DNA of 64,000 nucleotides from Asterias amurensis (lineage: Eukaryota; Echinodermata; Asteroidea; Forcipulatida; Asteriidae). A program made the position numbers and the translations under genes. This document shows positions 10,543-63,094 of the stretch, piece by piece; the first letter of the stretch is position 1; every line of letters begins with the position of its first letter. The notes under the pieces were generated by a model, which was not told the DNA's origin, did not search any database, and saw nothing but the letters and a program-made list of their open reading frames with translations. Location: the NCBI RefSeq assembly GCF_032118995.1, contig NC_092665.1:12876512-12940511 (forward strand), in the 5' to 3' direction.

Positions 10543-10830
10543 TCAAGTATTAGGAGACTGTAGAAACTCTTCTCTTTAACATCCTTCGGCGGCAACTGCA
10601 GCTAGTTTTTCTTCTAAAGGCGTAAGCTACTAATAAATTACCGAACCAAATAAGAGACACTCGTCGTCCTATGTGAACCTAAACACGTCGAACACGATGG
10701 TTTGTCCCTTGTGTTCGCTGCCGCTTTGTCATACGGCGTACCAGGCAAAGGAATTTAAAAGTGCCCGAATGAGCTAAAGGGAATTCCCCCTATGTGAAAT
10801 CGCGCACGGGAGCCCTTGACCTTCTCTTAA
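10543..10830 (-). promoter_or_regulatory. Promoter/5' UTR block of OAS copy 1 with NF-kB-type site
   Basis: On the minus strand this block ends in CTTGA|GTAAGTT (donor at 10537-10542), so it looks like a non-coding first exon about 2.8 kb upstream of the copy 1 coding exon, whose acceptor is at 7771-7772. It holds GGGAATTCCC at 10779-10788, a palindromic kB consensus, next to TATGTGAAATC at 10791-10801, a degenerate form of the GATGAGAAATC motif seen at the other copies. The block has relatives before copies 2, 3 and 4. Confidence 0.55.
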
Positions 10831-11044
10831 ACGTCAATAGCTTTCCGTGTACCAACTGGATCGGTGTGTGCGTGTGTGTGTGTAACGGGGTTTTTTACAC
10901 TCGTGGTAGACTTGTGTACAAGTCGTTATTAGACGTCCATGCAACAGTCACAGTGCGATTATACACTCATGCAACTTTGGGATTGAGGATGACTGTGTGT
11001 ACCCTTGGTGTACCGTCCCCGCAACTAGACCACACCACAATTAC

Positions 11045-11125
11045 CAGGCAATCTCGGCAGTCCAGTTGGTAAGACACTGCTCTAGAATTGCAAAGGTCGA
11101 GGGTTCGAATCCCACTCAAGGAATA
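11045..11125 (+). repeat. tRNA-derived SINE-like repeat
   Basis: AGTCCAGTTGGTAAGACACT resembles an A box and GAGGGTTCGAATCCC is a B box. The duplicate is at 29325-29403. Followed by a GT-rich microsatellite (11220-11236). Confidence 0.5.
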
Positions 11126-11661
11126 TGTCTGTGACATTGTTCACATGACTCGTCAGTGCTAACACACGAGAATGGAACTTGAATCAAGTCTAGGGCTGTG
11201 GGTGGTGGCTGACACTTGATGTGTGTGTGTGTGGGGGGGAGACATTTAAGTATCACGTGATAGCTATAATCGAACTCTCTCGTGTAGTTTTACTCACTCT
11301 CTCTGTAGTTTTACTCAATCGTGTAAGCCTAATCCAACACACCCAATGATGCGGGTTTTTCGCAACCCTGATGATTTTTATTTTATTTCCCATTTCATCA
11401 ATCAGGACCAAGATGTTCGTTCGACCATGGGGAATGGGTGGGGCGTGCTTTATGGGGAGGGGTTTGAATGTGGGTGGATCAAAAGTGCAATCAATTGTTT
11501 TCGAAAATGATTTAGAGGGGAAGACATTACTATTTCTAAGGAACGAAATACTGTTTTGAGGAAATAAAATGATTTTTTATTTTTGTGTATTGCCTTTCTG
11601 CTTAATGGCCCCATACTTCAAACAAATCCTCAGACGAAATCATTATTCATTTTAAGAAAGT

Positions 11662-12044
11662 TTAAAGGCACTGGACACTTATTGGTAATTCCTCAAAATA
11701 ATTATTAGCTTACAAAAGGAGTAATGGGGAGAAGTTAATAGTATAAAACACTGTGAGAAACGGCTCCCTCTGAGTAACGTAGTTTTCGAGAAAGAAGTAA
11801 TTTTCCACAAATTTGATTTCGAGACCTCATTAAGAGGTCTCGAAATCAAATTTGTGGAAAATTACTTCTTGAGGTCTCGAAATCAAGCATCTGAAAGCAC
11901 GTGTTTTTTTCTTTCATTATTATCTCGCAACTTCGATGACCGATTGAGCTCAAATTTTCACAGGTTTGTTATTTTATGCATGTTGTGATACAGCAAGTGA
12001 GAAGACTGGTCTTTGAAAATTAGCATTCGTGTCCGTGTCTTTAA
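11662..12044 (-). mobile_element. R1 MITE, inverted
   Basis: TTAA at both ends, interior in reverse orientation. The central palindrome carries an extra copy of GAGGTCTCGAAATCAA absent from the partner at 30769-31098. Confidence 0.7.
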
Positions 12045-12229
12045 ACTTGTTTAGGCCCTATCTATTTTTGTTTGTGGTTAAGTGTCACGACTCACGGACC
12101 CACACTCTGCTGAACAGATTCACCAGAGCCTGAGTTCGGTGTTCTTCACAGCACGGCCACGACTCCCTTAATCACGAAGATATACGCATAAACCTACGAC
12201 TAGATTATAATAATGAACATACACTCTAA

Positions 12230-13894: not shown

Positions 13895-16800
13895 TTATAT
13901 AGTTGGCCATTCACGGACGTTTCCGAGCAGGGCGGTCCTGCGGAGGGTCCTTTCGGCAGCATCCTTTATCACCTGTATGAGTTAGAATTGAAAACACGTA
14001 TGAGTAATGGTTAATGAGTTTTTACGTGCTAAAATAACTTTATTTTGTGACTTGTGTTACTCATTTCTCATAATTAAAGCACCTTAGCAAGTAATATTTG
14101 AAAGGAAGCTTTCTACTATCATTATCTTCAAACCGTGTAAAGTTTAATGTAAATCTTAAGACATTTTGAAAAAGTACCCGAATCCGAACATTGTTCGTTT
14201 ATATCAACCCTTGATAATTCATTCATTCATCCAACATAATGATGTCCGTACATTCAACATTTCAGAACAAAATGTTGTCAACAATAGGCATAGGTTCAAG
14301 TTTTACGTTATACACACTCAGTAACACACAGTGAATTAAGATATGAAAACATGATAACTCCAAGTGATTTGTTGATCAGTTATACAAAATAGTAATAAAA
14401 ATGCAGTAAGTATGACAGCAATGGTTTAGGTGATTGGATTTTGCTTACCTTCTTGTTGTTCCCCCGGTACAAGCCGCCAACGTTGTTCGTCGGATTTGCC
14501 GGGTCCAAAATGATTGGTCTGTAGATGAGAGGTAGAGTTAGTAACGAGCATGGCTTATTGTTATTTTCAATCAACTTTACAAGTCTCGTAGTGTGCAACG
14601 TACACGTACGAAATGTAATCCTTTGCATGCTCTGAGGTGTCTGTAAAATGCCGTGGTGACAAGGCCTTTTACATGTGTTTAGCTTCCTCTAAAAAAAGGG
14701 GGGGCTATTATTTTGACGCTCATCACTTTAGTTTACCTTTCCATGTTGAGTTTCGTGATAATAGTTTCGTTGAGCTGATCATCCACACCGGGCATGTAGC
14801 TCCAATAAGTAGGCGGCCTGTTCAGATTGGTTAGAACCTCCAAGACGCTCTTCAAACCTTGGGCTTTGTTCAGTCGTCGTCGTCGTAGTCGTCGTCCGGG
14901 CTGCTCTGCCTTCTCCGCCTTCTCCCACCGGTCGATGGTGATCAACTCCAGAGGGTAGGACTTCTGGAGTTTTTCAGGGAGGAATCTAGACGCCCAATAC
15001 TTCACCAGGCATATCAACTCCTTCACGTCTTTGGGTTGATTACCGACAAACCGCACTTGGTGCTCAACAAAAGATGCAGACAAAAACGCTCGTGTTTCAT
15101 GCCCGACGTCTAGCATAGACAGGAACGTGTTACGGTCCGCTAGAAAGAAATAAACCAGAATCAAGCACTGATTATTTAGCGACTGGCCGTTTCTGAAGAT
15201 GACAGCATTATTTAAAGTTACTCAAATTATGTGCACAAATAAATTAAACAGTGTTTGCACTTTGGGCTATTACAAAAAAGCGTTAGTCATTAAATTCATA
15301 ATGATTCTTGACACTGTGTGGTTTTCCTTGTGCTTTGAGAACTTAAAAAACAAGGTGCGCCATTTTGTTAAACGAATTTGTTTTACTTAAAAAAAAGTGC
15401 GGACCTTGTTAGTTCACGAAGTAAAAGGAAAACCTGACGATTTCTAAGGATGATTGTGAGAATCATGTTCTTCTTTTAAAACATCTTTCCAAACCATATC
15501 CATTTCATAACGAACACATGGTTTCTATAAAGATACCCCCAAATAATTCAAAGGCAACGTGTCCCTAGTTAAAGTCACCTGGAAACGGTATTTTTTCAAA
15601 ATAAAGCCTTTGTCACTAATATGTGTGTTTTCATGAGTGGAATGTGAATAAACAGTTAACTAAGGTTTTAAGAATTTAGTTCTTATGTTGTTTACAAATT
15701 TAGGTCCGAACAGCCAATACGAGCTGCACGTTTCATTGACCTCATCGGATCAACAAACTTCATTCAAAACGTTACTGTTCCAACTCGAGAGGCTCATATC
15801 CTTGATCTCATTTCATCTCGTTCTACCAATAATTTTGTCGAAGACGTCAATGTGACAAATTATCTTCCTTCTGATCATGCAGCTATTGAATGTTCCTTGA
15901 GAATCACCAAACCTGATCCAGTTAGGATGGAAATAAAAATGCGCAAAGTCAGTGACATAGACATTGACTTATTTCGTCAGGAAATTCTTGAATCTGAACT
16001 GTATACCTCCCCCTCACCGAATCCTGACGTGATGATACAATATGAATCATTTCTGTCCAGTCTCTTGGACAAACACGCTCCAGTTATTACTCGTACAATC
16101 ACCTGTCGACCGCATTCGCCATGGTACGACGACAAGCTACGCAAAGCGAAGCAACATCTACGTCGGTTAGAAAGGAAATGGTGCGCTTCCAAACTTGAAA
16201 TTGATCGTCAGATATTCAAGGAATCCTGTTTTCAATACAAAAGCATGATTCTTGCAGCCAAAAGAATTCACCACCAAAATCAACTTCACAACGTATGTAA
16301 CTCACGTGACTTCTTCAAGAAAATAAACAAACTGTGTCAGCCTCAATCCCCACAACTCCTCCCATCAGCCGATGACCTGCAAACTCCATTGACTGAATGT
16401 TTTCAACATTTTTTCACTAGTAAAGTGAAAACCATCTCGGACTCATTGGCCATCTCTGCCCAAGGTTTAGGGAGAAACTTCCGAGAACATCACCACATAG
16501 TCACTTCATTCAACAGCTTCAAACCAGTTACAAAGGACGCGGTTGAAAAACTGATGAAGAAATCGTCCTCAACAACATGCTGCCTTGACCCCATTCCCAC
16601 CTCCTTGGTGAAACAATGCTCAAATGAACTCCTGCCCATCATTACCCGCATCATCAACGCTTCCTTTCTGAGTGGCCAATTCCCCGAAGGTCTAAAATTT
16701 GCCAACATATCACCTCGCATAAAGGATCCCAAAAAGGATACGGATGATCTGAAAAACTACCGACCAATTGCCAACCTCAAGTTTTTGTCTAAACTGACCG

Positions 16801-19800
16801 AGAAAGCTGCCGTAGCCCAGATACAAGGCTATATCTTGGAAAATCACACAGAACTACAACCAAAAATGCAATCTGCTTATCGACCATTTCACAGCTGTGA
16901 AACAGCACTTCTTCGGGTCTCCAATGATGTTCTGATATCTCTTGACAGGGGGCTGGAGGTTATTCTAGTCCTCTTGGATTTTTCAGCAGCATTCGATACC
17001 ATTAGCCATGACATCACCTTAAACCGTCTATCGCTTAGGTTCGGGATCAAGGATCAAGCATTAGAGTGGCTTCGGACCTATCTAACAAATCGTCGTCAAG
17101 CAGTTATGATTAATGGGCAACAATCTACGGTTCATACTCCAACCCAGGGAGTTCCACAAGGATCGGTATTGGGACCCCTATTGTTTACCCTGTACACCTC
17201 GCCTCTGGAAGAGATCATTCATGCTCATGGTATTAAAAGCATGTTTTACGCCGATGACACACAAGTCTACATTTCATTTAAACATTCTCAGCTTCAGGAA
17301 ACCGTTCTCAGCATACAGAGTTGCATAATGGACATCAAGCAGTGGTCATGTAGCAATGGTCTCAAGTTAAATGAGAATAAAACAGAACTCCTTCACATCA
17401 CATCTCGTTTTCGCAACAGAATCCCATTATCTTCTATTCAAATTGATGGTATACCAGTTCATTCTGTCGACAAAGCAAGAAACCTTGGTGTGACATTTGA
17501 CAAATCTTTTGCCATGGATAAGTTTGTCAATACAAAATGCCGTTCCGCCTCGTTTGCCCTACACAAGATCGGACAAATTCGCCAGTTCATAAATAAAACA
17601 ACAGCAGAAAAGCTCATCCATGCTTTTGTAATTTGTCATCTCGATTACTGCAATAGTCTCATCTATGGATTGCCCGACTCACAGCTCAGAAAACTCCAAC
17701 TCATTCAAAACTCAGCGGCTCGTCTCATCACCCGGTTAAGAAAACGCGATTCAATTACTCCTGCTTTGCAATCTCTCCATTGGCTTCCTATTCATTCTCG
17801 CATCATCTTCAAAATTCTCCTTCAAACATTTCAATGCAGTCTTGGAAGTGGACCAACTTACCTGAAAGATCTACTAACTCCATACACTCCTACTAGAAAC
17901 CTCCGTTCTGCTAACAAAGACACCCTCGTTATCCCTAAAGTTACCACCAAAGCATATGGTCAACGTAGTTTTCAGTTTGCTGCACCTCACTTATGGAACA
18001 ATCTCCATCTACACATCAAACAAGCCACTGCGATCTCAAGTTTCAAGACTCTTCTCAAAACACATCTATTCAAATTATCTTATACTTAATTATTCTTTTG
18101 GTTCCTCTGAGCGCTTAGAGACTTTCTTTTGGAGGTGTTAGGCGCTATAGAAATGCGGTTGTTATTATTATTATTATTATTTTCCTGGGGCCTACAAACG
18201 CCTGCAGCTCTCCTGCCTCTATTGAATATCATAAATATTTATAGCGTTTAACAAAGACAACGGGCCGAGTAGGGTGGGAGCCTTCAGTCTCGAGCTTGTG
18301 ATTGGACAATGGCAAGATCTGAACGTGCAACGGTGCTTTGAACGTGCAAAACGAATGATCACTACTTACTGTCCCGAAAATGTTCAACGTTCTGCTCCGT
18401 TGTGGGAAGAAGGTTGAATTCAACCAATCGATCTCTGACATATGTCTTGAAATTCACCAAGTGTTTTTCGAGTCGTAAGTCTGGTTGCAAGCCCCGCGGG
18501 CCTCCCACATTTGACCCCAGATGAGAAATGATATTGGGCAGAGCTCTCTTGTACTCTTTTAAGTTCCCAGTCTCTGTAATGGGTTGTAGTGGTGGATTGT
18601 TGACAAACAAAACCAGATCCACGTCCGATAGATTTTTTACCATAGTGCCTTTTCCGAACGATCCACCCTGCGAACGACAGAAAAAAAATCTTATCACAGG
18701 AAACCGGATACCCAAACTACAAGTAAGGGAATAGCTAAAATAAGTAACATACTCAAACAAGATACCCAAATAGTGTTACCGTAAATCTCTCTCAGAAGAA
18801 ACATACTAGTAGAAGTCTATACTCTATCATACCATAGAGCAAGGATACTAGTAGAAGTCTACTCTGTTATACCATAGAGCAAGGAAATAAAAGTTTAAGT
18901 TGACTTACCTGAACGACTGTATTAGTGAAGCCAAGAGTGTCACTATGACGGGTGGAATCGCGAATCCCTTTGAGCAAAGATTTGATTAATGATATGCAGT
19001 CATGTGCGAATAGCTCCGTTCCATGTTGCATGTTCTTATTGCCAGCATGGTACCAAGTCTCTAGTTCATCCGGAGATAAACACCACGGTTCTTCTTCCAC
19101 TTCTATCTCAAAGTCTAATCCATTTCCACGGGCAGACGGTTTTTTCCCTACCGGTCCTTCATGCGGTAGAAATTGAAAAATAATACATGTATAAACATAC
19201 TTGCCCACATTGAAACCTAAAGCCCGGTTCGTACTTCCCGTGAATGCGAATGCGAAGCGAAATTTTGACAACACATCAGGGCAACCCCTCGCTGCTAATG
19301 ATTCACAGGAGACGCACACAAGTCAACTGGTGCGAATTGTTCGTTGCAAATTTGTGATGGCCGGGACATATAACGGGACAATTATAGGGACAATTATAGC
19401 CAATCAAAGTTTCTATTTAAAAAAACAACTGATGGTTATGAACCGAAGATCGTTCAGTACGGTAGGCACAGGCGTTATAATACGAAATTTGCTTTGAACC
19501 AAAAGGAGTATGGGGACATGGTCAGTATGGATGCATTAATAAGGGAATAAAAGGTTAGCGACGAGTTCTTATTAAACGGCCGTTTAAAACAGGCAGTTTG
19601 CAGTGTGTGTCCATCGCCCGTGCAAAGCTTCATACAATATTGTATAAATGTTGGTGCAAAATTTATTATTTGTAAATAAAATTAACATTATGGATGAATA
19701 ATGAATGTTGTGTTGTATAAAGAATTATATGTAAATACTGCGTTAAAATGTTTTGACATGTGGCGCCTCATAGAGTCGCGATTCCAAAACTATGGTTTTG

Positions 19801-28765: not shown

Positions 28766-29060
28766 TCAAGTATTAAGAGACTGTAGAAACCCTTCTCTTT
28801 AAAATCGTTCGTCAGCAATTGCAGCTAGTTTTTCTTCTAAAGGCGTAAGCTACTGTCCTAAAATAAAATCGAACAAAAATAAGAGACACTCACCGTCGTA
28901 TGTGAAGGTAACACGCCGAACACGATGGTTTGTCCCTTGTGTTCGCTGCCGCTTTGTCATACGGCGTACCAACCAAAGGAATTTAAAAGTTCCCGGATGA
29001 GCTAATAAAGGGAATTTCCCGACGAGAAATCGCGCACGCTTCTGCCCTTGACCTTCTCTA
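28766..29060 (-). promoter_or_regulatory. Promoter/5' UTR block of OAS copy 2 with NF-kB-type site
   Basis: Segmental-duplication partner of the block at 10.5-10.8 kb. The minus-strand donor is at 28760-28765. The kB-type site is GGGAATTTCC at 29010-29019, with GACGAGAAATC at 29021-29031. It lies about 9 kb upstream of the first copy 2 coding exon because the 6.2-kb transposon sits between. Whether copy 2 still uses it is unknown. Confidence 0.45.
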
Positions 29061-32201: not shown

Positions 32202-34945
32202 TTACCACGCACTGACGTCACTGAGCAGGGTGGTCCGGAGGGTCTTTTCTGCAGCTGCCTTTATCACCTGTATGAGTTAGAATTGAAAACACTGTATGAG
32301 TAATGGTAAATGAGTTTTTACATGCTAAAATAATTTTATTTTGTGACTTGTTTTACTAATTTCTCAAAAACTAAAGCACCTTAATAAGTAATATTTGAAG
32401 TATAAAGGGAAGCTTTCTACTATCATTATCTTCAAATCGTGTAAAGTTGAATATAAATCTGAAGACATTTTGAAAAAGTACCCGAATCCGAACATTGTTC
32501 GTTTATATCAACCCTTGATAATTCATTCATTCATCCAGCATAATGATGTCCTTACATTCAACATTTCAGAACAAAATGTTGTCAATAATATGCCTTAGGT
32601 TCAAATTGTACGTTATACACACTCAGTAACACACAGTGAATTAAGATATGAAAACATTGATAATTCCAAGTGATTTATTGATCAGTTACACAAGATAGTT
32701 ATAAAAATGCAGTAAGTGTAGGACAACAATGGTTTAGGTGATTGCATTTTGCTAACCTCCTTGTTGTCGTACTCCTGGTACAAGCCGCCAACGTTGTTCG
32801 TCGGATTTGCCGGGTCCAAAATGATTGGCCTGTAGATGGGAGGTAGAGAAACGAGCATGGTTATGGTAATTTAAGACAAATTGTGTAAGTCTCGTAGAGC
32901 GCAATGTATACGTAAATAATATAATGATATTATCGAAGTCTTTAGATAGCGCACGAGGTACTCAAGGCACCGAGTATAAACTTTCAGAAAGATAGGTTAT
33001 TGTAGTGATGAATTTTTAGACCCAATTATTAGCACCTTATATAGGGTTTACAAGGTGCTACGGTGCATGCATACAGCAGCTTTAGCGAGGAACACCGGGC
33101 GAACCCCTGCTCTTTTCGAAAAGTGCACTGGGTTATTTTACATGCGTTACACAACACATGGGACCAACGGCTTTACGTCCCATCCGAAGGACGAAGCAAT
33201 GGTTAAGTGTCTTGCTTAAGGACAAAAGTGTCACGGCTGGGGATTAGAACCCATACTCTGCTGATCAGAAAAACCAGAGTTTGAATTCGGTGCTCTTAAC
33301 CGCTCGGCCACGACACTTCGACACATACGAAATGTAATCCTTTGCATGCTCTGAGGTGTCTGTAAAATGCCGTGGTGACAAGGCCCTTTTCGTGTGTTTA
33401 GTTTTCTCTGAAAAAAAATGGGATCGTATATTGACGCTCAGCTCTTTAGTTTACCTTTTCATGTCGAGTTTCCTGATAATAGTTTCGTTAAGCTGATCAT
33501 CGACACCGGACATGTAGTTCCAATAAACACGCAGGCTGTCCAGATTGGTTAGAACCTCCAAGACGCTCCTCAAACCTTGGGCTTTGCTCAGTGCACTGGG
33601 CTTCCCTGCCTTCTCCCACAGGTAGATGGTGATCAACTCCAGAGGGTAAGACTTCTTGAGTTTAGCGGGGAGGTATTTAGACGCCCAAAACTTCACCAGG
33701 CGTATCAGTGCCTTTAAGTAGCCGGGTCGTTCACCAACAAACCGCTTTTGGTGCTGAACAAATGCTGCCGAATAAAACCCTCGTGTTCCATGCCCGACGT
33801 CTAGCATAGACAGGAACATGTTACGGTACGCTAGAAGAAGAAAAAAACACAGAACCGAGCACTGATTATTTAGTGACTGTCCGTTTCTGAAGATGACAGC
33901 ATTATTTACCGTCACGGTAAATAATGCTGTCATCTTCAGAAACCTTACTGTGCACAAGTAAACTAAACAGTGTTTGCGCTTTGGGCTTTTACAAAAAAAG
34001 CGTTAGTTATAAAAAATAATAATAACGATTCTTGACACTGTGTGGTTTTCCTTGTGCTTTGTGAACTTTAAAAACAAGGTGCGCCATTTTGTTAAACGAA
34101 TTGTTTTACTTTTAAAAAATGCGGACCTTGTTATAAGTTCACGAAGTAAAAGGAAAACCTGACGATTTCTAGGTATGATTGTGGGAATCATTATTTTCTT
34201 CTTTTAAAACATCTTTCCAACCATATCCATTTCATATTATACAAACACGTGATTTCTAAAAGACACCCCAAATAATCAGAAGGCAACGTGTGCGTTTATA
34301 ATTGACATTACTATGTTCTCGTTTTACTTACACGACTGATATGGAACGTTCTCCGTTGTGGGAAGAAGATCGACGTCAATCCATCGACTTTTGACTTGTA
34401 TCTTGAATTTCACCAAGTATTCATCGTATCGTATGTTTTGGATGTTCGCCACACCTCGCAAAGTCGACGCTATCTCGGAAATGATTTTGGACAGAGCTCT
34501 CTTATACTCTTCTTTTCCAATCTCTGCGATGGGTTTTAAATATGGTTTGTTGACAAATGCAACCAGATCCACGTCCGATAGATCTTTTACCATAGTGCCT
34601 TTTCCGAGCGATCCACCCTGCGAATGAAACAAAACATCTGGAACTCGGATACCCAAACTACAACCTCAGGTGGGTATAGATTACAGGAAACATACTAGTT
34701 GTCTACAAGAATTCAATTTTAAATGTACTTACCTTGACAACTTTATCAACATCGAAGTCAAGAATATTAGAGGAGCAATTCCTGTGAATATGCCCGACCA
34801 CACTGAGGATTGCTGATCGGCAGTCAGATGCAAACTTCTCCGTTCCATGTTGTATGTTGCCATTGTACCAAGTCTCCAGATTACCCGGAGATAAGCACCA
34901 GGGCTGTTGTACCTGCTCTCCGCTTGTATCATATAGAGAGGCCAT
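32202..34945 (-). CDS. OAS: OAS copy 3: 2'-5'-oligoadenylate synthetase, 5 coding exons, 337 aa
   Basis: Exons: 34733-34945, 34332-34617, 33455-33830, 32757-32829, 32202-32267, with consistent phases 0, 1, 2, 0. The chosen ATG (MASLYDTSGEQ) has a good context, ACAAAATGGCC, and lies just before the conserved QPWCLSP motif. The P-loop is at 72-79; SDVD gives D86 and D88, and DVDLLPTT gives D154. Exon 3 contains ALIRLVKFW and the aromatic core of the OAS C-lobe; exon 4 reads PIILDPANPTNN; exon 5 reads VIKAAAEKTLRTTLLSD and ends in Trp. All residues expected for an active 2-5A synthetase are present. The donor of exon 4 is GTTAGC, weaker than the GTAAGC used in copies 1 and 2. The 3' half lies in the 7-kb segmental duplication shared with copy 2. 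A SINE (about 32925-33320) and a 61-bp palindrome (33883-33943) lie in its introns. Confidence 0.9.
32925..33320 (-). mobile_element. tRNA-derived SINE with conserved central domain, in intron of OAS copy 3
   Basis: On the minus strand it starts GTGTCGTGGCCGAGCGGTTA, a Leu/Ser-type tRNA head with A box, then GGGTTCTAATCCCC (B box). A central domain with CTTCGTCCTTCGGATGGGAC and AAGCCGTTGGTCCCATG, and a 3' tail, follow. Domains of this kind are known from widely shared metazoan SINEs (Deu, Nin-DC and related); I cannot fix the family by eye. Absent from the paralogous OAS copy 2 intron at about 14600. Confidence 0.7.
33883..33943. repeat. 61-bp perfect palindrome in intron 2 of OAS copy 3
   Basis: Arms GTTTCTGAAGATGACAGCAT and ATGCTGTCATCTTCAGAAAC around ACCGTCACGGT. 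A single arm is present at the same intron position in copies 1, 2 and 4. Confidence 0.85.
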
Positions 34946-35559
34946 TTTGTTTCCACGCACCTTCGGACGAAGATTAAAAACAAACAATGAATTTAGTATT
35001 AGTCAAGACAAGATTTAAAAAACAAAATCGAGCGGCATTTTTGAGTACAATTTGGTACACATATCTAATTTACGGTGCTGATTCCGAAAATGATGGATAT
35101 CAAGGCTAATTTTGAGTCGTTGTCCCTAAAAATTCACATTTAAAATAGCACAGAAAACCTAGCAGACGACAGTACTTTACTTTCAAAAATAGTCATGATA
35201 AAACTAAAAAGAACAATAAAACCAAAATACAAGTTACGACGAGTAACTAACGAAATAGAAACCAAGACAAATCCCATCTTCTAAAGATAAAAGACTGATA
35301 CAAACTAACAAATACCAAACGATTGAGGGCGGTCCTCAAAAGTTAAAGACGGGAAGCGAGAACTCTCAATGTTTTGCACGAAAAAGTGAGAAGAAAATTC
35401 GGGCAGTCTGGAAAGTTGAGGTCGATGGTGAAAGCGGAGCATGAGCGGGGCAACCGAAGTGCATCCAAACATAGTCCACAAATTCATGCCTTGTGAAGGA
35501 ACAACTTTAGATAGAGTCTGGCTTTAGACCAAGTAAAAAGTATTGCAGTGGGTGGGCGC

Positions 35560-38875: not shown

Positions 38876-41800
38876 TTATGGCCACGCAGTGACATCACTG
38901 AGCAGGGTGGTCTTGAGAGTTCTTTCTGCAGCTGCGGCTAATACCTGCATGGTTAGAATAAAAAAAACACTGCGTGATTTTCACTCAATAAGCTGTGCCC
39001 AAACTCCGTCAGTCCTTAAGTGTATCTTTAATAATAATAATAATACGGACATGTATACTGCGCAGTGACCTATATAAATATACTCTACTGCGCATTACAA
39101 GGAATAAGCCACTTCGGAATGTCAGCGGCGCACGTCTGTTACTACTGCTGACAACGGGGTTTGTCTATCTCCCGTAACCTTTTGACAATACCCGCTGGTA
39201 TTGTCAAAAGGTTATTGGAGATAGACAACATGCGTTGTCAGCAGTAACAGACATGCGTAGCTGGAACTCCGAAGTGGCTTATACACAAATTGCAGGGAAA
39301 AATGAAAAAACAAACACACAAACAGAGCAAGAATTAATGTCATGGGTGAAGCTATAAAGTTATGTACATTTCATACATATTATGTAATTTTAACAACCTG
39401 TCTAAGTTTTAATCAATTTTCTTGAGCTTAAAGCCTGCTTTTTGGCGTTACAGTCAACGGTTCTTTCCGAGTTCTCGGGACATCCACACGTCCACATAGG
39501 ATCAAACAACACAACTGCAGTAGAATATCTGCAACACTCTGGGGGTACTGATACTTACTCCCCTTGTTGAATGATTTAACCAAGAAAATCTGGCAATGGT
39601 GTATGACCCGTAATATTTTGGTTGTCAAGTTTACACTTACATGTACATAGGCATGCAGCAAAAGCACTATTGCTGACTTCATTTCCAGGAATTTTCACGA
39701 AGATATGGAATGGAAACTGGATCCAAATATTTTTGGGAACAATTACCGAGTCTTTTCTCAAACCAGAGGTCGATCTCTTTGCCTCTCGGTTGAATGTTCA
39801 ACTAAAACAATTATGTTTCTTGGCATCCCGCAGAGCCGGGTGCATCCCACGTAGATGCATTCACGTCACGCTTAAAATTGTTTTTAATCATTAAAGTCAC
39901 CTGGAAATAGACTTTTTATCCTTTCAAACATAAGAGTATATGCTTACGAACAATAAAACAATTTTTTTAGTAATTGTTTGTCACGATTTATATGTTTAAA
40001 AAATATATAAAGTTGTTTGGGGGGCTGACTCCGCCTACCCCTTTTGTGACGTCAATCGAGGCAGACTTTGCCTGCAATGCGTATAGTAAACACACGTGCA
40101 AAGTACATGTACGTCCAAGTCTTGAGTTGGTACATTTCAAAAAGTGTTTTTCTGCATTCAGCAGCAATACACCTGGTCGGCATTGCCGGAAAAAACAATT
40201 TTTTTTTTTTTTTAAACTTACAAACTCACGACTTGGTCCGTACATGTACTTTGCAATTGTGTTTACTCTACGCATAACAGGCAAAGTCTGCCTCGATTGA
40301 CGTCACGAACAGCGCCCTCTCGGGTCGGGGTCTACTCTTAAATTTGTAAATAACATAAGAACTGATTTTTTTAAAACCTTAGTTAACTGTTTATTCACAT
40401 TCCACTCATCAAAACACATATATTAGTGACAAAAGCTTTATTTTGAAAAATACCACTTCCAGGTGACTTTAATATGATCTCATACACCTCTTACCTGCTT
40501 ATTGTTACTCCATTGATACATGTAGCAAACGTTGTTCGTCGGATTTGCCGGGTCCAAAACGATTGGTCTGTACAGAGGTTGGGGGCACAGGTAAACTTAG
40601 TAAATAACATTTATTTAAATTTATGTAAATACATTTTAAATAGTATTGTGTGCAGTGTACTTTAAAGTACGAGATTGTGTTCATATAAAAAAATTATTAT
40701 GAGCAACGAAGGCGGAAAAGCACGGAGTTTTTATGCCAGATGCCAGCGTTGCAAGCGTTTTGATTCTGGGTACTAGACTTTATCAATCGAGCTATTTTCC
40801 TGTGTCGGCTTCGTGACCTTGCCTTCTGAGATTCGTGACACAAGGACTAAACAAAAAAATAATGTTTTGTGCATGTCTGTTTGTTTGTTTGTTTGTTTGT
40901 TTGTTTGTTTGTTTGTTTGTTTTGTTTATTAAGTGTTTTTTCAAATTTATAAAATTAACAGTAGGCATGTAGGTCTAAATATTTGCATGTTGATAAACTG
41001 TGATATGTCAACTACAAGATTTCAAAAAGGGACTAAAATGGTAAACTGTTTAAACGCACTTCAATGGAGGAATGTAAATGTGTCTAAGGACTGTAAGATA
41101 CGGGTTGACAATATTTTCTTTGGTGATACAAATGAACTCCTTTTTTTATACAGTTGAGTTTGTAGCCTCTGAGTTGCCTGTAAAAGATGCCGTGCTGGCA
41201 AAACTCTTTACTTGTTTTACCTTTTTGCATGCAAAACATGGGATATTTTTGTCTTAAAAATCACCTTTTCATGTCGAGTCTCCTTATAATAGTTTCTGCA
41301 AAATTATCATCCTGCCAATAAACACGCAGCCAGTCCAGATTGGTCAGAACTTCCAAGACGCTCTTCAGGCCCTGAGCTTTACTCAGTGCTCTTGTTGGCT
41401 GCCCTGCCTTCTCCCACAGGTAGATGGTGATCAACTCCAGAGGGTAGGACTTCTGGAGATACTCAGGGAGGAATCTAGACGCCCAATACTTCACCATGCG
41501 TATCAACTCCTTCACATAGCCGGGTTGTCCCCTAACAAACTGCACTTGGTGCTGAACAAGTGATGCCGAATAAAACTCTCGTGTTTCATGCCCGACGTCT
41601 AGCATAGACTGGAAAAGTTTGCGATGCGCTGGAAGAAATAAGAATCCAGAATCAAGCGCTCGTTTATAGTGGACGTCTGTTTTCTGAAGATGACAGCATT
41701 TCATGTTTTACCGTTACTCAAACTGTGCACAAACAACATAAACAGTTTTGGCTGGTGGGTTAAAGGATTTGGGTACTTTTTGTAACACAAAACACAATGT

Positions 41801-44800
41801 CCACATATTTACGTTAACCTTGTACCGTTTGAACATAATGATAGTAGAAAGCTTACCTTACAATATTACTAGCTGAGGTGCTGTAGTTTTTGAGAAATGA
41901 GCAAAACAGTGGCACGAAAAATACGTTTTACTTGCTAAAATAATTTTCGTCTTTAAAGACGAAAATTATTGTCGTGACTTGTTTTACTCATTTCTCAAAA
42001 ACTACAGTACCTCAGCTAGTAATATTTTCAGGAAAGCTTTCTACTATCATCTTTTTCAAACTGTGTGAGTTTCATGGCCTTTTATGGAACGCATCGTGGT
42101 ATTGTCGGGATGCAGGTTTTAAAAGGGACAGATGATGTCTTCGGATTGGGCGCTTTATGCTATTAACAAGCGTTTATTATGAAATTTAATATAATTTAGA
42201 ATTGAACAGAGAAAATTAACTAGAGAGGGACTCGAACCAACGACCTCCGGATTAACCCGGTGGTCGTTGGTTCGAGTCCCACTCTAGTCAATCTTCTTTG
42301 TTCAACCCCAAATCGTTTACAAATTTACCCAGTCAGTTTCCCTTGTGGTTTATAAAAATTGAAAATAATATGGTTCCAAAGATGTTTTAAAGTAGAATAT
42401 TGTTATCCACACAAAATATACCCCAACAATATTCCTTTTACTTCGTCGTACTAATAGAGTCAGACTTTTTGTAGAACCACAATGTTTGACTCCACAAAAT
42501 AGCCCAAAAGCGCCCAATACGATGGGAAACATGTCCCCTTAAACTTGACATTACTGTGTTCTCGTTTTACTTACACGACTGAACATTCTCCGTTGTGGGA
42601 AGAAGATCGACGTCTATCCATCGACTTCCGACTTGTATCTTGAAATTCACCAAGTATTCATCGTATCGTATGATTTGGACGTTCGGCACACCTCGCAAAG
42701 TTGACGCTATGTTAGAAATGATTCTTGACAGAGTTCTCTTATACTCTTCTTTTCCAATCTCCGCGATGGGTTTTAGGTATGGTCTGTTAACAAACGCAAC
42801 CAGATCCACGTCCGATAGATCTTTTACCATAGTGCCTTTTCCGAGCGATCCACCCTGCCAATGAAACAAAAACATCTGATCACAGGAACTCGGATACCCA
42901 AACTACAAACTCCGGTGGTAGCTATAATAAACACGAATTTTGTCTTAGACTTGCGGACAAGTCGTTAATGGTTTGTCGCGGTGATAGCCGAGTCGTGGTG
43001 GTGGCGTAACGATTCAGGTCACCTGCTCTCTCCAGGGCCCAATTTCATAGAGCTGCTAAGCAGTGAAAAATTGCTTAGCATGAAATTTCTTCCTTGATAA
43101 AAACAGGATTACCAACCAAATTTTCATTTGTTGCATATTGCTTGTTACTGGTATTTAGCTGTTGTTTGCTTTTCCTGAAAATCATGTGGAAATTTGGTTG
43201 GTAATCATGTTTTTATCTAGGCAAAAATTTCATGCTAAGCAAATTTTTGTGCTAAGCAGCTCTATGAAATTGGGCCCAGATTACTGCACTCGCGCGAAGC
43301 TGCTGGCTGCCGACTACTTCTCCGTGAGATTGATGCACAATGCGAAAGCAGTAGTCTCGCGGGGGCAGCAGTCTCGTAAAAATATCCCCAGTGTCGCAGG
43401 AATCGCGGAGAGAGTCGGGACGCTATCACCGCGACAGACATTTAACGACTTGTCCACAAGTCTAATATAAATATACAAGATTCAATTTTAAGTTTACTTA
43501 CCTTGACCACTTTATCAACATCGAACTCAAGAATACCAGAGGAGCAATTCCTGTGAATATGCCTGACCACACTGTCGATTGCTGATCGGCAGTCAGATGC
43601 GAACTCCTCCGTCCCAAGTTGTACGTTGTTATTGTACCAAGTCTCCAGTTCATCCGGAGATAAACACCAGGGTTCTTCTTCTAAGACAGAAATAAAAAAA
43701 ATGTAGTTAGACAATGAGGCTTTCCTATTTGCTATAACCATGTAGCTCCATGGTATAACTAAGACATCGTGGGTGCTCTTAATATATTCCTTCTTTTGTG
43801 TCGTCTCCATAAAACGAAGAAGAATGACAACATACCATCCCTTGCACTTATATTGAAAATGGATTCATAAATACCTCAGACAGTTTCGCTTTACCTATTG
43901 GTGGAGAGCGCGTCACGTGGGTGTGTATAAACCTTTGTTTATGACCAGTAAAAAGTGTTGAAACATGAGCGTGACACGCGAGCTTGCACCTGTTCTTATA
44001 AGACAGTTTCTTCATCCCTATTGATCGAGAACAACGGCTGAAACAGTTGTGCCACATCACGCGATACGCGCGACGCGCACAGCATTTCCTTATAAGGAGT
44101 TGTTTACCCGAGGGCGGCGGAGGTCTTTACCATTTCATAGCTGGAGGGGTGTTGTGTTGAAAGAAATCATTGAACAATTATAATTTATTTTACTTTTCGA
44201 CCAAAAAGTGTTGAAGTTCTTTTACCGAAAAGGTATTTATGAATGGGAATCAAAGTGTGTTGAATCGGTTTTCAACTAGTGGTTTAAACCCGCCGAGGCC
44301 TGGTTCTTGATAATTTACCTCGACTTCGTCTCGGTAAAATTATCAAGAACCAGGCCTCGTTGGGGTTAAACCACTAGTTGAAAACCTCTTCAACACACAT
44401 TGATTCCCTTATTTAAAACGTTATTATTTCTTGGAAAAGTATCTCTATTACTAATGATTCTACTGTGGAATACCACAGAAAATGGGACTCCTTTAAATTA
44501 TTGTGTCACGGTTAACGTTGATTTTGTAAAGTGTTTTGTCGGTCAACTTTATTATGTTGTTTTCTGTCAAGGCTTTCAGCACGTTTATAAAGTGAGCAGT
44601 TGTTCTCAGTTAGAATAGAAAAAAAATTAAAACAGCAACGAAAGTGTTTAGGCGTAAATCCATGCCAAATGCACACCGTCTGGTTTGTACTACAAGTATA
44701 CAACAAATACATTAGAACAATTACAATGCCACAACTTTAACTGTAAAGGAAAAGGCAGTTCCGTCAATGGGAGACTTGTGGGACGCATGGTGGCAGCAGA

Positions 44801-47443: not shown

Positions 47444-47960
47444 ACAAGTCAAAGAGGTAATTCTGTTGAACAACTTTCTTCAAAATCCTGCAACAAAACA
47501 TCAGCTATGTCATGTTGATCATATTATCATGGCGAACTTGACAAATCATTATCTAGCAAAAGCCAACGCCCCATAAAAAAACATCAAAATGTAAATAATT
47601 TGGTTTTCCTAACTGGTTTCCCGCTGGCCCTAATGAAGTTAAAACACGGCGTACCAGGCAAAAGCGTTGAAAGTCCCCGGATGCATTTGTTTTCTGTTTA
47701 CACCACAGCGAGGGGTTTTGTACGGTAACACTGCCAATTCCTGTCTTGGGCTGAGTCCAAATTCCATTTAATATTATTACGCCGTTATTCGCCAGTGAAG
47801 GATTATTTAAAAAAAAAAACCGTTGAAACGTAGTCTCTTATTCGAGACAGGAATTGCAAGTTTTCGGTTGCGGGTGTAAACAAAAAGTACGTTGCCCGCA
47901 CGAGCTGCGGGGAATTCCCCAGATGAGAAATCGACCACACACTCTGCTCTTTGGCATTTA
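47444..47960 (-). promoter_or_regulatory. Promoter/5' UTR block of OAS copy 4 with NF-kB-type site
   Basis: Homologous block with donor GTAAGTAGG (47438-47443), about 2.1 kb upstream of the copy 4 ATG. The kB site is GGGGAATTCCCC (decamer 47910-47919), with GATGAGAAATC at 47922-47932. About 20 bp on the gene side of the kB site the block is interrupted by a foldback insertion (47684-47900) absent from the other blocks. Confidence 0.55.
47684..47900. mobile_element. Foldback insertion in the OAS copy 4 promoter block
   Basis: Arms TTTGTTTTCTGTTTACACC and GGGTGTAAACAAAAAG, inner AATTCCTGTCTTGG / CGAGACAGGAATT. It splits CCGGATG...GAGCT sequence that is continuous in the copy 3 block. Confidence 0.5.
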
Positions 47961-53724: not shown

Positions 53725-55707
53725 CTATTTCCACCCTTGACGGACCGTGACGTTCTTCAGGAGTTGAGTCTGGAGGGTCTGCCCGGCGGCTGAGGCAATT
53801 TCTCTCCCGTTGGTCCCTTGCTGGTAGAGCTGGCACACATTGTCCGTCGGCTCGATGGGATCTAACACGATAGGACTGATGGGGGAAACATATATAACAG
53901 TAATGAAAGTTTAATTGAACAAATTATTTTAAGGAAATTTCTATCTGAAGAAACTAAACCCTCAAAATTAAACAAACTGCCACGCCCTCTTTCTTGATTC
54001 AAAAGTCAGTGACAGAAAAACACTGTGTTTTTGTAACTAACTATACTGTATAGGTCATCCGCCGACCTTTTATCAACAGCCAGGCCAAGTGTCGCACCTA
54101 TTTGATTTGAGAACTGGCAGCCAGGTTATTCCACGGACTTATGGAGATCAGCTATGAAGCCTTCCATAGTCTGGTTTCGCTTCCCGGTATTTTAAATTTG
54201 TGCAACATATCTAATCTAATCATTTATTGTTTAAAGTGCACCGCATACAATTATCCCAGCACACCGTACATAGTGACAATAAAAGTTAATGTTAAAAAGT
54301 TGAACAAGAAGAGTAAAAACTTTATATAGTAAACAACGACTACCATAATGCAACAACCATAAAGAGACAAATTCAAAATAAACCCAATGGCTGGGCACTT
54401 ATAAATTTTACTTCACTTACTTTTGCATTCCAAAGCGTGTAATTGCTTTTTGTGCCATTTCAGTGTAGATTTGATTGGATCCTGGCCAGCTAGTAACACG
54501 CAGTGCAGTCAACTTCGTCAAGACCTCAAGGACGTTCTTCAACCCCTGGGCTTTGCTGAAATAAACGGGTTTTCCAGCTTTCTCCCAAAGGTGAATGGTG
54601 ATCAGCTCCAGCAGGTAAGATTTCTTGAGATTCTTGGGGAGGTAGTCATTCGCCCAGTACTTCACGAGACGTACTAGCTCCTTCACGTACCCAGGCTGGC
54701 TACCGACGAAGTTGAGCTGATGTTCGGCAAGGGAACCAGAGTAGAAAACCCTGTCTTTGATGTCGTTAAGATGCAGCATGGCAAGGAACATATCTGAATG
54801 ATGAGCAGGTGAAGAAAGAGGAAAGTATGCTGTTAAAAATAATATAAGAATATTGCTACATCGGTGCACCGATACAACTTAATTAAGAAATAAGGCCTCA
54901 TCAAAAGTAACAATAGTATATACCACTTTAAAATAAAGAAAAATATCAATATAATATTTTTTTTTTTTTTTTTCAAAATCATTTACCCTATTCTCAATTT
55001 CCCCGTGACCATTATGAAATAAATAATCATAGATTCAAAATATTTATTGACACGTAATTTAGCCGACTTACCTCGACCGGGGCCAGCACACTTGCTTGAA
55101 GTTGGTAGAAAATCGATGCTTATACACCTTGAGCCCACTCTGATGTTGAAAATAACCAAGAACTCGTGCTTGCTTACTTCAGATACAGATGCGTACGGCA
55201 GCCTCTCCAGCCTGTTCAACGCCGTGTAAAGATCTTCGATGACGGCAGCCAGCTTGCGCTTGTATTCGCTCAGTCCGACTGTTAAGATGGAGTCCATGTC
55301 TGGTGGATTGATGAAGGCGATCAGATCGACATCAGAAAGGTCCTTCACCATGGTCCCTTTACCAAGAGATCCACCCTGCAGAAGAAAAGAAACATTGGAC
55401 CCATTAAATACTCCCACTTAAACAATTTCCCGTGGAATTGTCGGGGTGAATCTTGTCTGTTATATTGAATATAATATTATGGATTGTATATTATTTTTAA
55501 CGTACACACCTTAACAATTCTATCAACGTTGAAACGTAGACCGCCAGATTTACAAATGCTCTGCACCGATCGGACCACTTCATCGATAGCTCTTCTGCAG
55601 TCCCTGTCGAAATCGTCCGTCCCACGTTGAATATTCTCGTTATACCATGTCTCGAGACTGCTTGAATCCATGCACCAAAGCTGTGAAAATCTTCCAGATC
55701 CAGCCAT
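53725..55707 (-). CDS. OAS: OAS copy 5: 2'-5'-oligoadenylate synthetase, 4 exons, 341 aa
   Basis: Exons: 55510-55707, 55072-55375, 54421-54793, 53725-53875, phases 0, 1, 2. It starts MAGSGRFSQLWCMDSSSLET; there is no N-terminal extension. The P-loop GGSLGKGT is at 67-74, SDVD gives D81 and D83, and SIDFLPTS gives D154, so the triad is intact. Exon 3 has ELVRLVKYWANDYLP and ELITIHLWEKAG. The final exon encodes PIVLDPIEPTDN and continues without an intron into the C-terminus, ending RQGWK, which matches the tryptophan-ended tail of vertebrate OAS1. Copies 1-4 have an intron at that point. The tail stops one codon before copy 6 because of a TAG. PTNN is changed to PTDN. The gene is a recent tandem duplicate of copy 6 about 7.2 kb away; flanks and introns are recognisably shared. 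Confidence 0.92.
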
Positions 55708-55830
55708 TGCGAGTTGGTTAAGTTTATGAATCCTTCCAAGTTCAAATGCAGCTCTTGTCTGCTGAAATTCCAGGCAAATATTGGGGGTTTTTTAAAACTC
55801 CGATTTCACAATTGTGAGCGATTGTATCAT

Positions 55831-55865
55831 GTGATTCCCCGTATTTCTGATGATGGTGAGAAATC
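55831..55865 (-). promoter_or_regulatory. Proximal promoter motifs of OAS copy 5, kB site degraded
   Basis: GTGATTCCCC (55831-55840) corresponds to the intact kB decamer of copy 6 but has one mismatch in the G triplet. GGTGAGAAATC follows at 55855-55865, and the TATA-like sequence next to it reads TATACAC instead of TATAAAG. It lies about 125 bp upstream of the ATG. Inducibility may differ from copy 6. Confidence 0.45.
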
Positions 55866-59788: not shown

Positions 59789-62700
59789 CTACCCTTTCCA
59801 CCCTTGACGGACCGTGACGTTCTTCAGGAGGGGAGTCTGAAGGGTCTGCTCTGCGGCTGAGGCGATTTCTCTCCCGTTGGTCCCTTGCTGGTAGAGCTGA
59901 CAGACATTGTTCGTCGGATTGGCTGGGTCCAACACGATCGGACTGAAAATAACAAAGAAATGAAAAGTTTCAGGGTTTCAAGGTTTGTTGTTTCCACAGT
60001 AACAAAATTGTACCACAGGCAATGTACATGTTCCAAATAATACAGTCAAGCCTGGAGGACAACACAAGAAAGATAAGAAGTTATAACATTTTTTATTTTA
60101 CAAAATACTACCTGAAGGAACCTTCAACATCAAGCTACACTTAGGTCTCAACTTATACGAACTTCTTGCTTCAAAAGTCAGTGATCGGAAACAAAACTCT
60201 GACAGAGAATAACAAACCAACACTGTGTTTCCGTCACAAAATAGTTGCATTGGACCTTATAATGTGAGTGACGTCATCCGCTGAAATCTTTATCAACAGC
60301 CAGGGTAAGTGTCGCGGCGTATTTTGACAAGTTTGGGGAACTTTTGGTTTTCATGTAGGCCTATTATTTTAAAAAGTGATGGAAACCGAATTGCCACAAT
60401 GGTAGCGAGAAAGTGTTCAACGGCCGCGCTGCTGATACGCAGCTTACATGTAGTCTTTCCAGTGCTTCTCGGTGTGGCAGGAGTATCTGCCTCGCATTGC
60501 GAACTGCGTACACATTTCTTGTGATAGCGCCCTCTTTTGAATCATCCTCCTTCAGCCCATATTTTTTTCCATTATGGCGGGACAGAATCTCAGATACACC
60601 TATGACACTAGACTTTTTAATCTCGTGCACATAGCGCGTGCGCACTAATATTTTGGTTGGCAAAAAAATAATAAGGAAACATCAGACGCGTTTGCGCGTC
60701 TGTTTAGTGCACAATTTGGTCTGTACGCATGAATGTAATGAGCATAATTTCATGGGAGGGGTCCATTGCTGGGCAGTAAGTTCACCTACTTTATCATTCT
60801 AAGCTGTGTAATCGCAGTTTGTGCCAGTGTAGCGTCGTACAGACGGGAGCCAGACCAGCTAGTGACACGCAGTGCCGTCAACCTCGTCAAGACCAGTAGG
60901 ACGTTCTTCAACCCCTGAGCTTTGCTGAATTGAACGGGTTTCCCAGCCTGCTCCCAAAGGTGAATGGTGATCAGCTCCAATCGGTAGGATTTCTGGAGAT
61001 ACCCAGGGAGGTAGTCATTCGCCCAGTACTTTACGAGACGGACTAGCTCCTTCACGTACCCAGGCTGGTTACCGACGAAGCTGAGCTGATGTTCGGCAAG
61101 GGAAGCGGAGTAGAACTCCCTGTCCTTATCGTTGTGAAGCTGCAGCATGGCACGGAACATATCTGAGTGAGCTGGCGGTATTAAAGAAAACAAGGAAAAG
61201 TTGATTTACTTATGATTAATATCGGTGCACCCTCACCCATCCGATCTAATGGTATTTAAAGGTACAAAGGACAACAGAGTTGTCACAATACTCTTAATTA
61301 CGCCTACATGAAAAGTTACAATAATTTAAACAATTTGTTTACATATTATTAAATAAGTAAAAAGATATAAAAATGCAGCATCAAATTGCTACGTAATTAA
61401 TTCCAAAAATAGTAACTCTCCTTATTATACCTTTTTTAGACTTAATTGTTGAATTATAACCTCAAAATGTTTCTTGATGAATGACTTGGCTTTCAAACCG
61501 ACTAACCTCGACCGTGGCCGGCACAGTTGTCTGAAGTGGGAAGAAAATCGACATTCAGACACCTTCTGCCCACTCTGATGTTGAAGTTAACCATGAACTC
61601 ATTCTTGCTGACATTAGACACAAACGACAGACCCGTCATAGCTGTGTAAAGATCCCGGATGACGACGGCCAGCTTGCGCTTGTATTCGGCTGGTCCGAGT
61701 CTGACGATGGGGGCCAGGTTTGGTGGATTAATGAAGGCGATCAGATCGACATCAGAAAGGTCCTTCACCATGGTCCCTTTACCAAGAGATCCACCCTTCA
61801 ATCAATCAATAAATCAATCAATCAGTCAATCAATCGATCAATCAATCAATCATGCCATGCTAATGTATTTGTTTAAGTGTTAATTTTGGGTATTGTTTCA
61901 AATCCAAGCTACTGACCTATTTTTGTTGTAAAAGTTTTTCAATTCAATTCAATTTAATTCAATTCAATTCAATTCAAAAACTGTAATCATCCTTTGCAGG
62001 CAATAACAATAGCAGACCAGCTCCATATAAAAAGTAAATTTGGTCTCATGAGACCAAAATTATTTTAGCATGTAAAATCCCCTTAACCAGTTATGATATT
62101 ATACCTAAACCATAAACGAAAATTATTAATTTTACTCATTTCTCAAAAAACTACAGCACCTCAGTAAGTAAACTTTCAAGGGAAGCTTTCTTCTATCATA
62201 ATCTTTAAACTGTGTATAAGTTTAATGTAAATCTGTGGACACTGTGTTTTTTGTTAGGAAAAAGTACATATACCCTTTAAGCTAAAGATGAAGGGAATGA
62301 CAAAATCCAGTTTTGTAATGTAGGCCTAACTATTTTCCAAAAACAGAGTGAATAAAGAAAAGATTATAATTTTATGTGAGTGAGGAAAAACTAAAAAAAC
62401 GTCCAACAACGTTTCTATTACCCGTCCAAGACAAAATGAATTAATGTTTTAACATCTAAAATATCTGACGAGAAAAAATGGGTCTTCTTCAATTTTGTTG
62501 GTTCGACTGACTTTTTCAGAGCAAAAATTGAAACATGTTTTCAGAGCAAAATTTGAAACATGTTTCAAATTTTGCTCTGAAAAAAATCAGTCGAACCAAC
62601 AAAATTGAAGAGGACCCATTTTTTCTCGTCAGATATTATGGATTTCAAAAACTATCAATCTCATTTCAATGAGGAATTGTTTCGAGAAAATATCTCACGC

Positions 62701-62927
62701 CTAATAAGATAATGATGAGGCATACGCACCTTCAAAATTCTGTCAACATTGAAATGGAGACCGCCCGATGAACAAATCGTCTGCACCGATCGGACCACTT
62801 CATCGATAGCTCTTTTGCAGTCCCTGTCGAAATCCTCCGTCCCACGTTGAATATTCTCGTTATACCATGTCTCAAGACTGCTTGAATCCATGCACCAAGG
62901 CTGTGAAAATCTCCCAGATCCAGCCAT
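59789..62927 (-). CDS. OAS: OAS copy 6: 2'-5'-oligoadenylate synthetase, 4 exons, 337 aa
   Basis: Exons: 62730-62927, 61507-61795, 60790-61162, 59789-59942, phases 0, 1, 2. N-terminus MAGSGRFSQPWCMDSSSLET; P-loop 67-74; D81 and D83 in SDVD; D149 in NVDFLPTS. Exon 3 has ELVRLVKYWANDYLPGYLQ and LELITIHLWEQAG; the last exon has PIVLDPANPTNN and ends RQGWKG. About 337 aa compares with about 364 for human OAS1 p42. Two points need care. The acceptor of exon 2 is TTGAAG and its upstream tract is an ATTG tetranucleotide array rather than a pyrimidine run, so splicing may be weak. The exon 3 donor is GTAGGT. A TATAAAGG sequence (63087-63094) and a kB-type site (63053-63062) lie 126-167 bp upstream of the ATG. 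Intron 1 contains a long foldback (62475-62634). Confidence 0.92.
61799..61855. repeat. (AATC)n microsatellite at a splice acceptor
   Basis: About 13 AATC units (ATTG on the gene strand) run directly into the acceptor of OAS copy 6 exon 2. Confidence 0.85.
61938..61977. repeat. (AATTC)n microsatellite
   Basis: Eight units, one interrupted, in intron 1 of OAS copy 6. Confidence 0.8.
62475..62634. repeat. Long foldback in intron 1 of OAS copy 6
   Basis: Arms of roughly 75 bp: GAGAAAAAATGGGTCTTCTT and AGAGGACCCATTTTTTCTCG, continuing through GTTGGTTCGACTGA / TCAGTCGAACCAAC to TTTGAAACATGTTTCAAA. Absent from intron 1 of copy 5. Confidence 0.75.
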
Positions 62928-63052
62928 TGCGAGTTGGTTTAGTTTATGAATCCTTCCAAGTTCAAAATGCAGCTCTGGTCTGCTGAAATTCCAGGCAAAT
63001 ATTTGGGGGGTTTTTTAAACTCTGATTTCACAATTGTGAGCGATTGCATCAT

Positions 63053-63094
63053 GGGATTCCCCGTATTTCTGACGATGATGAGAAATCCTTTATA
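63053..63094 (-). promoter_or_regulatory. Proximal promoter of OAS copy 6: NF-kB-type site, GATGAGAAATC, TATA box
   Basis: GGGATTCCCC at 63053-63062 matches GGGRNNYYCC. GATGAGAAATC is at 63077-63087, the same partner motif as in copies 3 and 4 but 14 bp further away. TATAAAGG on the minus strand is at 63087-63094, 160 bp upstream of the ATG. The transcription start is not determined. Confidence 0.55.

Follow-up and report, generated by a model that had tools for sequence, protein, structure and literature searches.

How are the six OAS genes in this stretch of the Asterias amurensis genome switched on, and do they share the switch? The window (the whole stretch analysed, 64,000 nucleotides) carries these genes on its minus strand, and the original prediction, made from the sequence, had placed an NF-kB-type (kB) decamer with an adjacent partner motif upstream of each. 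The six decamers are present where they had been placed, as GGGAATTCCC at 10779, 37587 and 47910, GGGAATTTCC at 29010, GGGATTCCCC at 63053 and GTGATTCCCC at 55831. The predicted spacing also holds: read on the plus strand, the partner comes second, with gaps of 2, 1, 1 and 2 bp for copies 1 to 4 and of 14 bp for both copy 5 and copy 6. The partner GATGAGAAATC is exact in copies 3, 4 and 6, has one mismatch in copies 2 and 5, and two in copy 1. Since the OAS genes lie on the minus strand, the gene-sense order is partner and then kB, GATTTCTCATC-n-GGGAATTCCC. Five of the six sites match the kB consensus GGGRNWYYCC, and the decamer of copy 5 at 55831 is one mismatch off, as had been claimed. The composite sites are as follows.

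10779..10801, minus strand: OAS copy 1; kB GGGAATTCCC at 10779-10788, partner GATTTCACATA (gene sense) at 10791-10801, 2-bp spacer
29010..29031, minus strand: OAS copy 2; kB GGGAATTTCC at 29010-29019, partner GATTTCTCGTC at 29021-29031, 1-bp spacer
37587..37608, minus strand: OAS copy 3; kB GGGAATTCCC, partner GATTTCTCATC at 37598-37608, 1-bp spacer, exact
47910..47932, minus strand: OAS copy 4; kB GGGAATTCCC, partner GATTTCTCATC at 47922-47932, 2-bp spacer, exact
55831..55865, minus strand: OAS copy 5; kB GTGATTCCCC (one mismatch), partner GATTTCTCACC at 55855-55865, 14-bp spacer
63053..63087, minus strand: OAS copy 6; kB GGGATTCCCC, partner GATTTCTCATC at 63077-63087, 14-bp spacer

By spacer length, copies 1-4 (1-2 bp) form class I and copies 5-6 (14 bp) class II. 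In class II the motif starts 158 bp from the ATG of copy 5 (ATG 55707) and 160 bp from that of copy 6 (ATG 62927), and both copies have an extra GTGAAAT 3' of the kB site. Counting either strand, GGGRNWYYCC fits seven places in the window, namely the five composite kB sites plus 391 and 59354. In a 104-kb region round the window, a partner with at most one mismatch occurs within 25 bp of a perfect kB site five times, always in gene sense, while 30 order-2 Markov resamples of this region contained no composite of this quality.

The pairing is constrained across the genome as well. When the spacer was allowed to range over 1-20 bp, 491.5 Mb yielded six exact composites, every one spaced at 1-3 bp; three of these lie by OAS genes, and the other three are arranged in tandem between a pair of divergent ZNFX1 genes. 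Allowing up to two mismatches gave 11 places with a 1-bp spacer, 13 with 2 bp and 13 with 3 bp, one place with 8 bp, and one with partner and kB swapped. About 0.36 places would be expected by chance from the base composition of the window, and reversed-pattern controls returned 0 in each genome-wide search (exact, 1-, 2-, 3- and 8-bp spacer, swapped order). These genome-wide counts are lower bounds, the mismatch searches having covered spacers of 1, 2, 3 and 8 bp. A chance origin was rejected on the Markov resamples and on the reversed, spacing and order controls genome-wide. Two sites held in fixed spacing and order beyond chance make up a composite regulatory element, and the pair would be classed as one on these sequence grounds. 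Outside the tight 1-3-bp rule stand OAS copies 5-6, with their 14 bp, and one OAS gene of a further array (array C), whose composite has a 6-bp spacer.

The 1-3-bp searches yielded 37 rows, which come down to 21 independent non-OAS rows once 9 from the OAS arrays, 5 duplicates and 2 overlapping readings are subtracted. Partner positions 2-4, 6, 9 and 10 are invariant in all 21, whereas position 1 varies in 8 rows and position 11 in 7; because the variation falls at the ends of the partner, its core is ATTTC(T/A)CAT. Where the kB half is altered at non-OAS sites, 11 of 13 versions still fit GGGRNWYYCC on one strand, the query having been one fixed string; a single substitution would leave 26% fitting (P about 2e-5, with every altered site taken to carry one change). 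The genome contains two Rel-homology loci (NFAT possible), and the kB half fits Rel/NF-kB as a predicted binding site.

We then turn to the genes beside the non-OAS sites. Surroundings were read at 16 of the 21 independent sites, mostly over 2.5-7 kb and mainly on the 3' side, with 13 kb at C8 and about 40 kb at ZNFX1; C3:1238413, C4, C5, C7:2655012 and C15 lie outside these 16. On C3, about 11 kb between the two divergent ZNFX1 genes holds the three exact composites and two weaker ones, and the exact copies share identical immediate flanks, so they were counted as one. The first of these genes matches the human ZNFX1 structure (E 4.5e-262, residues 54-1224) and the second gene shows 79% identity; a ZNFX1 domain (E 1e-28), AAA helicase domains and NFX1-type fingers seen by eye complete the features on which we assign this neighbour to ZNFX1. 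The C8 site lies 5' of a RIG-I-like receptor (RLR) gene, its start about 130 bp ahead of the probable ATG. Same-strand exons there match CARD_2 (E 8.2e-11) and, for the helicase exon, MDA5 structures most closely (E 2e-10), and a RIG-I C-terminal domain (RIG-I_C-RD) lies 18 kb on, on the same strand, at C8:13992543. These predicted exons together supply the CARD, DExD/H helicase and C-terminal regulatory domain of an RLR. Further sites precede a zf-MYND/DUF4470 protein on C14 and a TPR protein on C6; a TIR domain suspected by eye at the end of the C6 protein was not confirmed. On C1, two sites in opposite directions stand upstream of a 601-codon open frame on the minus strand; the two parts of this frame that were scanned had no Pfam match. 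Judging from these predicted neighbours, the association with antiviral genes is strong at OAS, ZNFX1 and the C8 RLR and may or may not extend to the other sites.

We consider it likely that the composite is a compact enhancer or promoter unit through which Rel/NF-kB and a second factor would switch on antiviral genes. A palindromic kB site would stand beside the ATTTC(T/A)CAT core in one order, usually 1-3 bp away, and this tight spacing and single order argue for two proteins bound side by side. Sensing of viral RNA would activate Rel, a Rel/NF-kB dimer and the second factor would bind cooperatively, and the OAS genes, the divergent ZNFX1 pair and one RLR would be induced jointly. With sensor and effectors under one element, the circuit may form a feed-forward loop. 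The observed part of this account comprises the grammar of the element, its rarity, its dependence on spacing and order, the neighbouring genes, and the fact that the genome carries Rel-homology and IRF loci. What we infer from it is that proteins bind the element, that they do so cooperatively, that virus induces the genes, and which factor reads the partner. The conserved Rel/NF-kB composite of the original prediction is thereby upheld by the spacing, the order, the reversed controls, the non-homologous antiviral genes and the altered kB halves (11 of 13). There it was seen as a feature of an OAS array; the element occurs genome-wide, and 7 of 18 OAS loci have no sense composite. Where it is present, control would still be its presumed role.

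The OAS tally behind that statement comes from a genome search for OAS1_C, which listed 18 loci and recovered all six window copies. A composite was counted when in sense, with at most two partner mismatches and one kB mismatch (not both at the limit) and a spacer of up to 25 bp. By this measure it is found at 7/7 loci of array A, 3/5 of array B, 1/5 of array C and 0/1 on C21, 11 of the 18 in total, and 8 of the 18 have the tight 1-3-bp spacer. The seventh array A gene lies left of the window at C18:12851391-12858515, and its composite (C18:12874821) precedes the first coding exon located by 16 kb. Two looser matches, with two partner mismatches and one in kB (one at C18:13577838, upstream of B1, the first gene of array B; the other at C21:12703105), were left uncounted because the resamples yield such matches by chance.

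The seven OAS loci that have no sense composite are among several observations that weigh against the proposed antiviral unit. At B1 there is a kB site, but the half-site, TATGAGAAATC, flanks it on the opposite side. In array C, one gene carries a tandem kB pair, GGGGAATTCCCC at C18:2174669 and C18:2174786, with the partner absent; the pair precedes the first coding exon located for this gene by about 1.2 kb. In copies 1-4 of the window, 2.6-9.9 kb separate the element from the first coding exon located. Among the 16 non-OAS sites read, two adjoin established antiviral families, nine have no recognised gene in the surroundings covered, and one lies inside an inverted repeat. The site nearest each ZNFX1 gene is oriented opposite to the OAS sites, and a composite is listed near one of four RLR loci (C8) and not near the other three. 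Neither of the two IRF loci has a composite within about 3 kb upstream; the search there found GATTTCTCACC at L048:1472, away from any adjacent consensus kB. In Nematostella vectensis, the accessible part of one report gives no significant change of OAS1 on knock-down of RLRb (PMC8476169).

The window itself invites another account, in which the OAS motifs are merely the shared ancestry of tandem duplicates, kept without selection. The OAS promoters can be aligned over several hundred bp, and the blocks AGCTCATCCGG and TTTGCCTGGTACGCCGT are retained as well. We aligned eight class I OAS promoters from two arrays. Mean pairwise identity reaches 0.87 in the partner, 0.78 in kB, 0.83 in a neighbouring AAGGTCAAAGGG block, 0.72 in the stretch right after kB and 0.34-0.62 elsewhere. 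Conservation thus extends past both motifs, and the alignment by itself cannot tell selection from shared descent. The composite, however, also stands by two kinds of gene that are not OAS homologues, ZNFX1 and an RLR, and is enriched genome-wide in one order at 1-3 bp. We regard descent alone as very improbable.

The same alignment bears on what else the promoters hold. The AAGGTCAAAGGG/AAGGTCAAAGGGCAGATTGTAC block, by eye, is what we take to be a DR1 nuclear-receptor-like site, and its representative in copy 3 is:

37609..37630, minus strand: third conserved block, AAGGTCAAAGGGCAGATTGTAC, directly 5' of the partner of copy 3; related blocks occur in other class I promoters

TGACCT or TGACCC is also seen 5' of some ZNFX1, C7 and C19 sites. 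An AGGTCA-type site lies within 70 bp upstream at 5 of 22 listed sites against a background of 2.8%, an exploratory, post hoc figure from a list that has related copies. A CRE-like site was considered as a constant companion and dropped, such hexamers lying within 70 bp upstream at only 3 of the 22 listed sites against a background of 4.4%; the OAS TGACGTT falls outside that pattern.

Copies 3 and 4 had been described as strongly diverged round persisting motifs and a GTAAGT donor. The donor is there, at +233 and +489 from the motif, respectively. The block of copy 4 does look diverged, but mainly through extra sequence: the stretch from the element to the next shared block is longer than in copies 1-3 by about 216 bp. 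Across copies 1-4, GTAAGT occurs 233-489 bp beyond the element, which together with the distant coding exon suggests that these copies carry a non-coding first exon.

Could the composite instead be a fragment of a transposable element, lying near these genes by accident? The C21 pair sits within an inverted repeat, and there are duplicated copies of the sites on C17 and on C3. Against this, the flanks of the other sites appear unrelated by eye, and a 271-bp OAS promoter query, in a search that passes over very common words, found six places including itself, all in OAS arrays. A dispersed repeat is thus unsupported for the OAS block, where the query matched OAS arrays only, and we give accidental transposition hardly any credence.

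The remaining question about the proposed Rel/NF-kB unit is which factor reads the partner. An IRF-family protein is slightly favoured on the motif evidence. Under that assignment, ATG(A/T)GAAAT (the core on its other strand) would be a relaxed version of AANNGAAA, and the element an inverted relative of the vertebrate interferon-beta kB-IRF pairing. The GAAA core is retained in 19 of the 21 independent non-OAS rows, and the genome has two IRF loci. A second half-site, ATTTC(A/T)C or G(A/T)GAAAT, lies within 45 bp 3' of kB at 5 of 19 independent sites (6 of 29 in all) against a background of 3.2%, and on the 5' side at none of the 29 (P 2.6e-4, post hoc). Its clearest case is a near-symmetric site in which partner motifs flank one kB, at C1:15218537-15218560 (L032 3638-3661, minus strand). 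The core element nevertheless holds a single half-site, AT replaces AA in 21 of 21 rows, and two sites (C12a and C12b) read GATTGCTCATC, with GCAA in place of GAAA, which also counts against the antiviral unit proposed above. The interferon-stimulated response element (ISRE) consists of two GAAA half-sites, as GAAANNGAAA, and an IRF site reads AANNGAAA; the core conforms to neither, having one GAAA preceded by ATG(A/T), and GCAA in the two C12 sites. On balance, an IRF half-site is a possibility we place a little short of even.

The invariant AT for AA and the two GATTGCTCATC sites make a bZIP or POU factor a live alternative. The partner would then be a C/EBP- or ATF-type or POU site beside kB, as in vertebrate inflammatory promoters, and the 11-mer a spaced ATT(T/G)C-N-CATC dimer site. 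ATTGC, a C/EBP half-site, is contained in the C12 sites, and GAT...ATC lends the 11-mer partial dyad symmetry. To our knowledge, no C/EBP or CARE site has a spacer of this kind, and we think this assignment unlikely.

The genes of the window were confirmed as OAS by their domains. OAS1_C was found in exon 3 of all three copies scanned (E 9e-17 to 2.9e-25); NTP_transf_2 was over the cut-off in one of the three and barely under it in another. With an NTase core and an OAS1_C domain, the predicted genes agree with the definition of OAS. Their coding parts are listed below.

5179..7756 (7454-7756, 5902-6204, 5179-5532), minus strand: coding exons of OAS copy 1; OAS1_C E 5.2e-24
14736..19151 (18891-19151, 18395-18715, 14736-15221), minus strand: coding exons of OAS copy 2; from the genome search for OAS1_C and exon map
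33454..34987 (34706-34987, 34327-34656, 33454-33957), minus strand: coding exons of OAS copy 3; OAS1_C E 2.9e-25, NTP_transf_2 E 3e-05
41264..43810 (43445-43810, 42570-42875, 41264-41704), minus strand: coding exons of OAS copy 4; from the genome search for OAS1_C and exon map
54420..55707, minus strand: coding region of OAS copy 5, ATG 55707; OAS1_C E 9e-17
60789..62927, minus strand: coding region of OAS copy 6, ATG 62927; from the genome search for OAS1_C and exon map

Three other features lie among these genes. A plus-strand reverse-transcriptase frame at 15852-18089 (RVT_1 E 1.6e-32), probably non-LTR by eye, is situated between exons of copy 2. Arrays of 24-bp tandem repeats with a similar unit, at 48500-49163 (27.7 copies) and 51444-51741 (12.4 copies), coincide with repetitive, probably spurious open reading frames. 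Between exon 1 of copy 4 and its composite, a minus-strand open reading frame of 117 aa (MGQVNSS..., 44976-45329) had no Pfam or NCBIfam match.

NF-kB and IRF sites together at antiviral genes are well known in vertebrates. Taking the familiar orientation of the human interferon-beta element as the reference, the sea star composite differs in having a single ATG(A/T)GAAAT half-site, inverted to kB, and in recurring at effector as well as sensor genes, where the human element serves one cytokine gene. It resembles the human enhanceosome in that kB is packed tightly with another factor's site at an antiviral gene; the accessible parts of two accounts describe rigid spacing and orientation for that assembly of ATF-2/c-Jun, IRF3/7 and NF-kB (PMC4743414, PMC6543449). 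In Nematostella, promoters induced by poly(I:C) or double-stranded RNA have STAT, IRF, NF-kB and ETS motif matches, with OAS1 among the genes detected; these are separate matches to vertebrate matrices, and the accessible part of that report does not describe a composite of fixed order and spacing (PMC8476169). Insect kB-GATA promoters (Relish, Dorsal) likewise pair an NF-kB site with a second site at immune genes, and the accessible part of the work on Manduca moricin states that it requires NF-kB and GATA-1. In the sea star, by contrast, the partner does not by eye match a GATA consensus, and the element stands at antiviral sensor and effector genes instead of antimicrobial peptide genes. 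The ZNFX1 promoter is reported, in the accessible part of its source, with STAT1/2, IRF1 and IRF9 motifs (PMC11959080).

What sets it apart from these systems is, as far as the sequence goes, a single tight, fixed-order composite reused at several unlinked antiviral genes. A literature search found no description of it, with most subscription journals outside its scope, and this is no proof of being unpublished. More tentatively, and with doubt outweighing confidence, rigid kB plus ATG(A/T)GAAAT, read by Rel and its partner, could be the master cis-code of an interferon-independent antiviral regulon that marks an RNA sensor, ZNFX1 and OAS. If so, the unit would either be ancestral to the vertebrate kB-IRF enhanceosome and ISRE logic or have arisen independently as its counterpart.

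For lower Metazoa, the accessible part of one study concludes that OAS genes are not interferon-induced antiviral genes (PMC6307210). A 22-24-bp element common to OAS, ZNFX1 and an RLR makes the question of OAS induction directly testable. It can also serve to search this and related genomes for other genes of the response, and raises the question of whether one Rel-dependent switch may coordinate antiviral genes in an animal presumed to do without vertebrate-style interferon.

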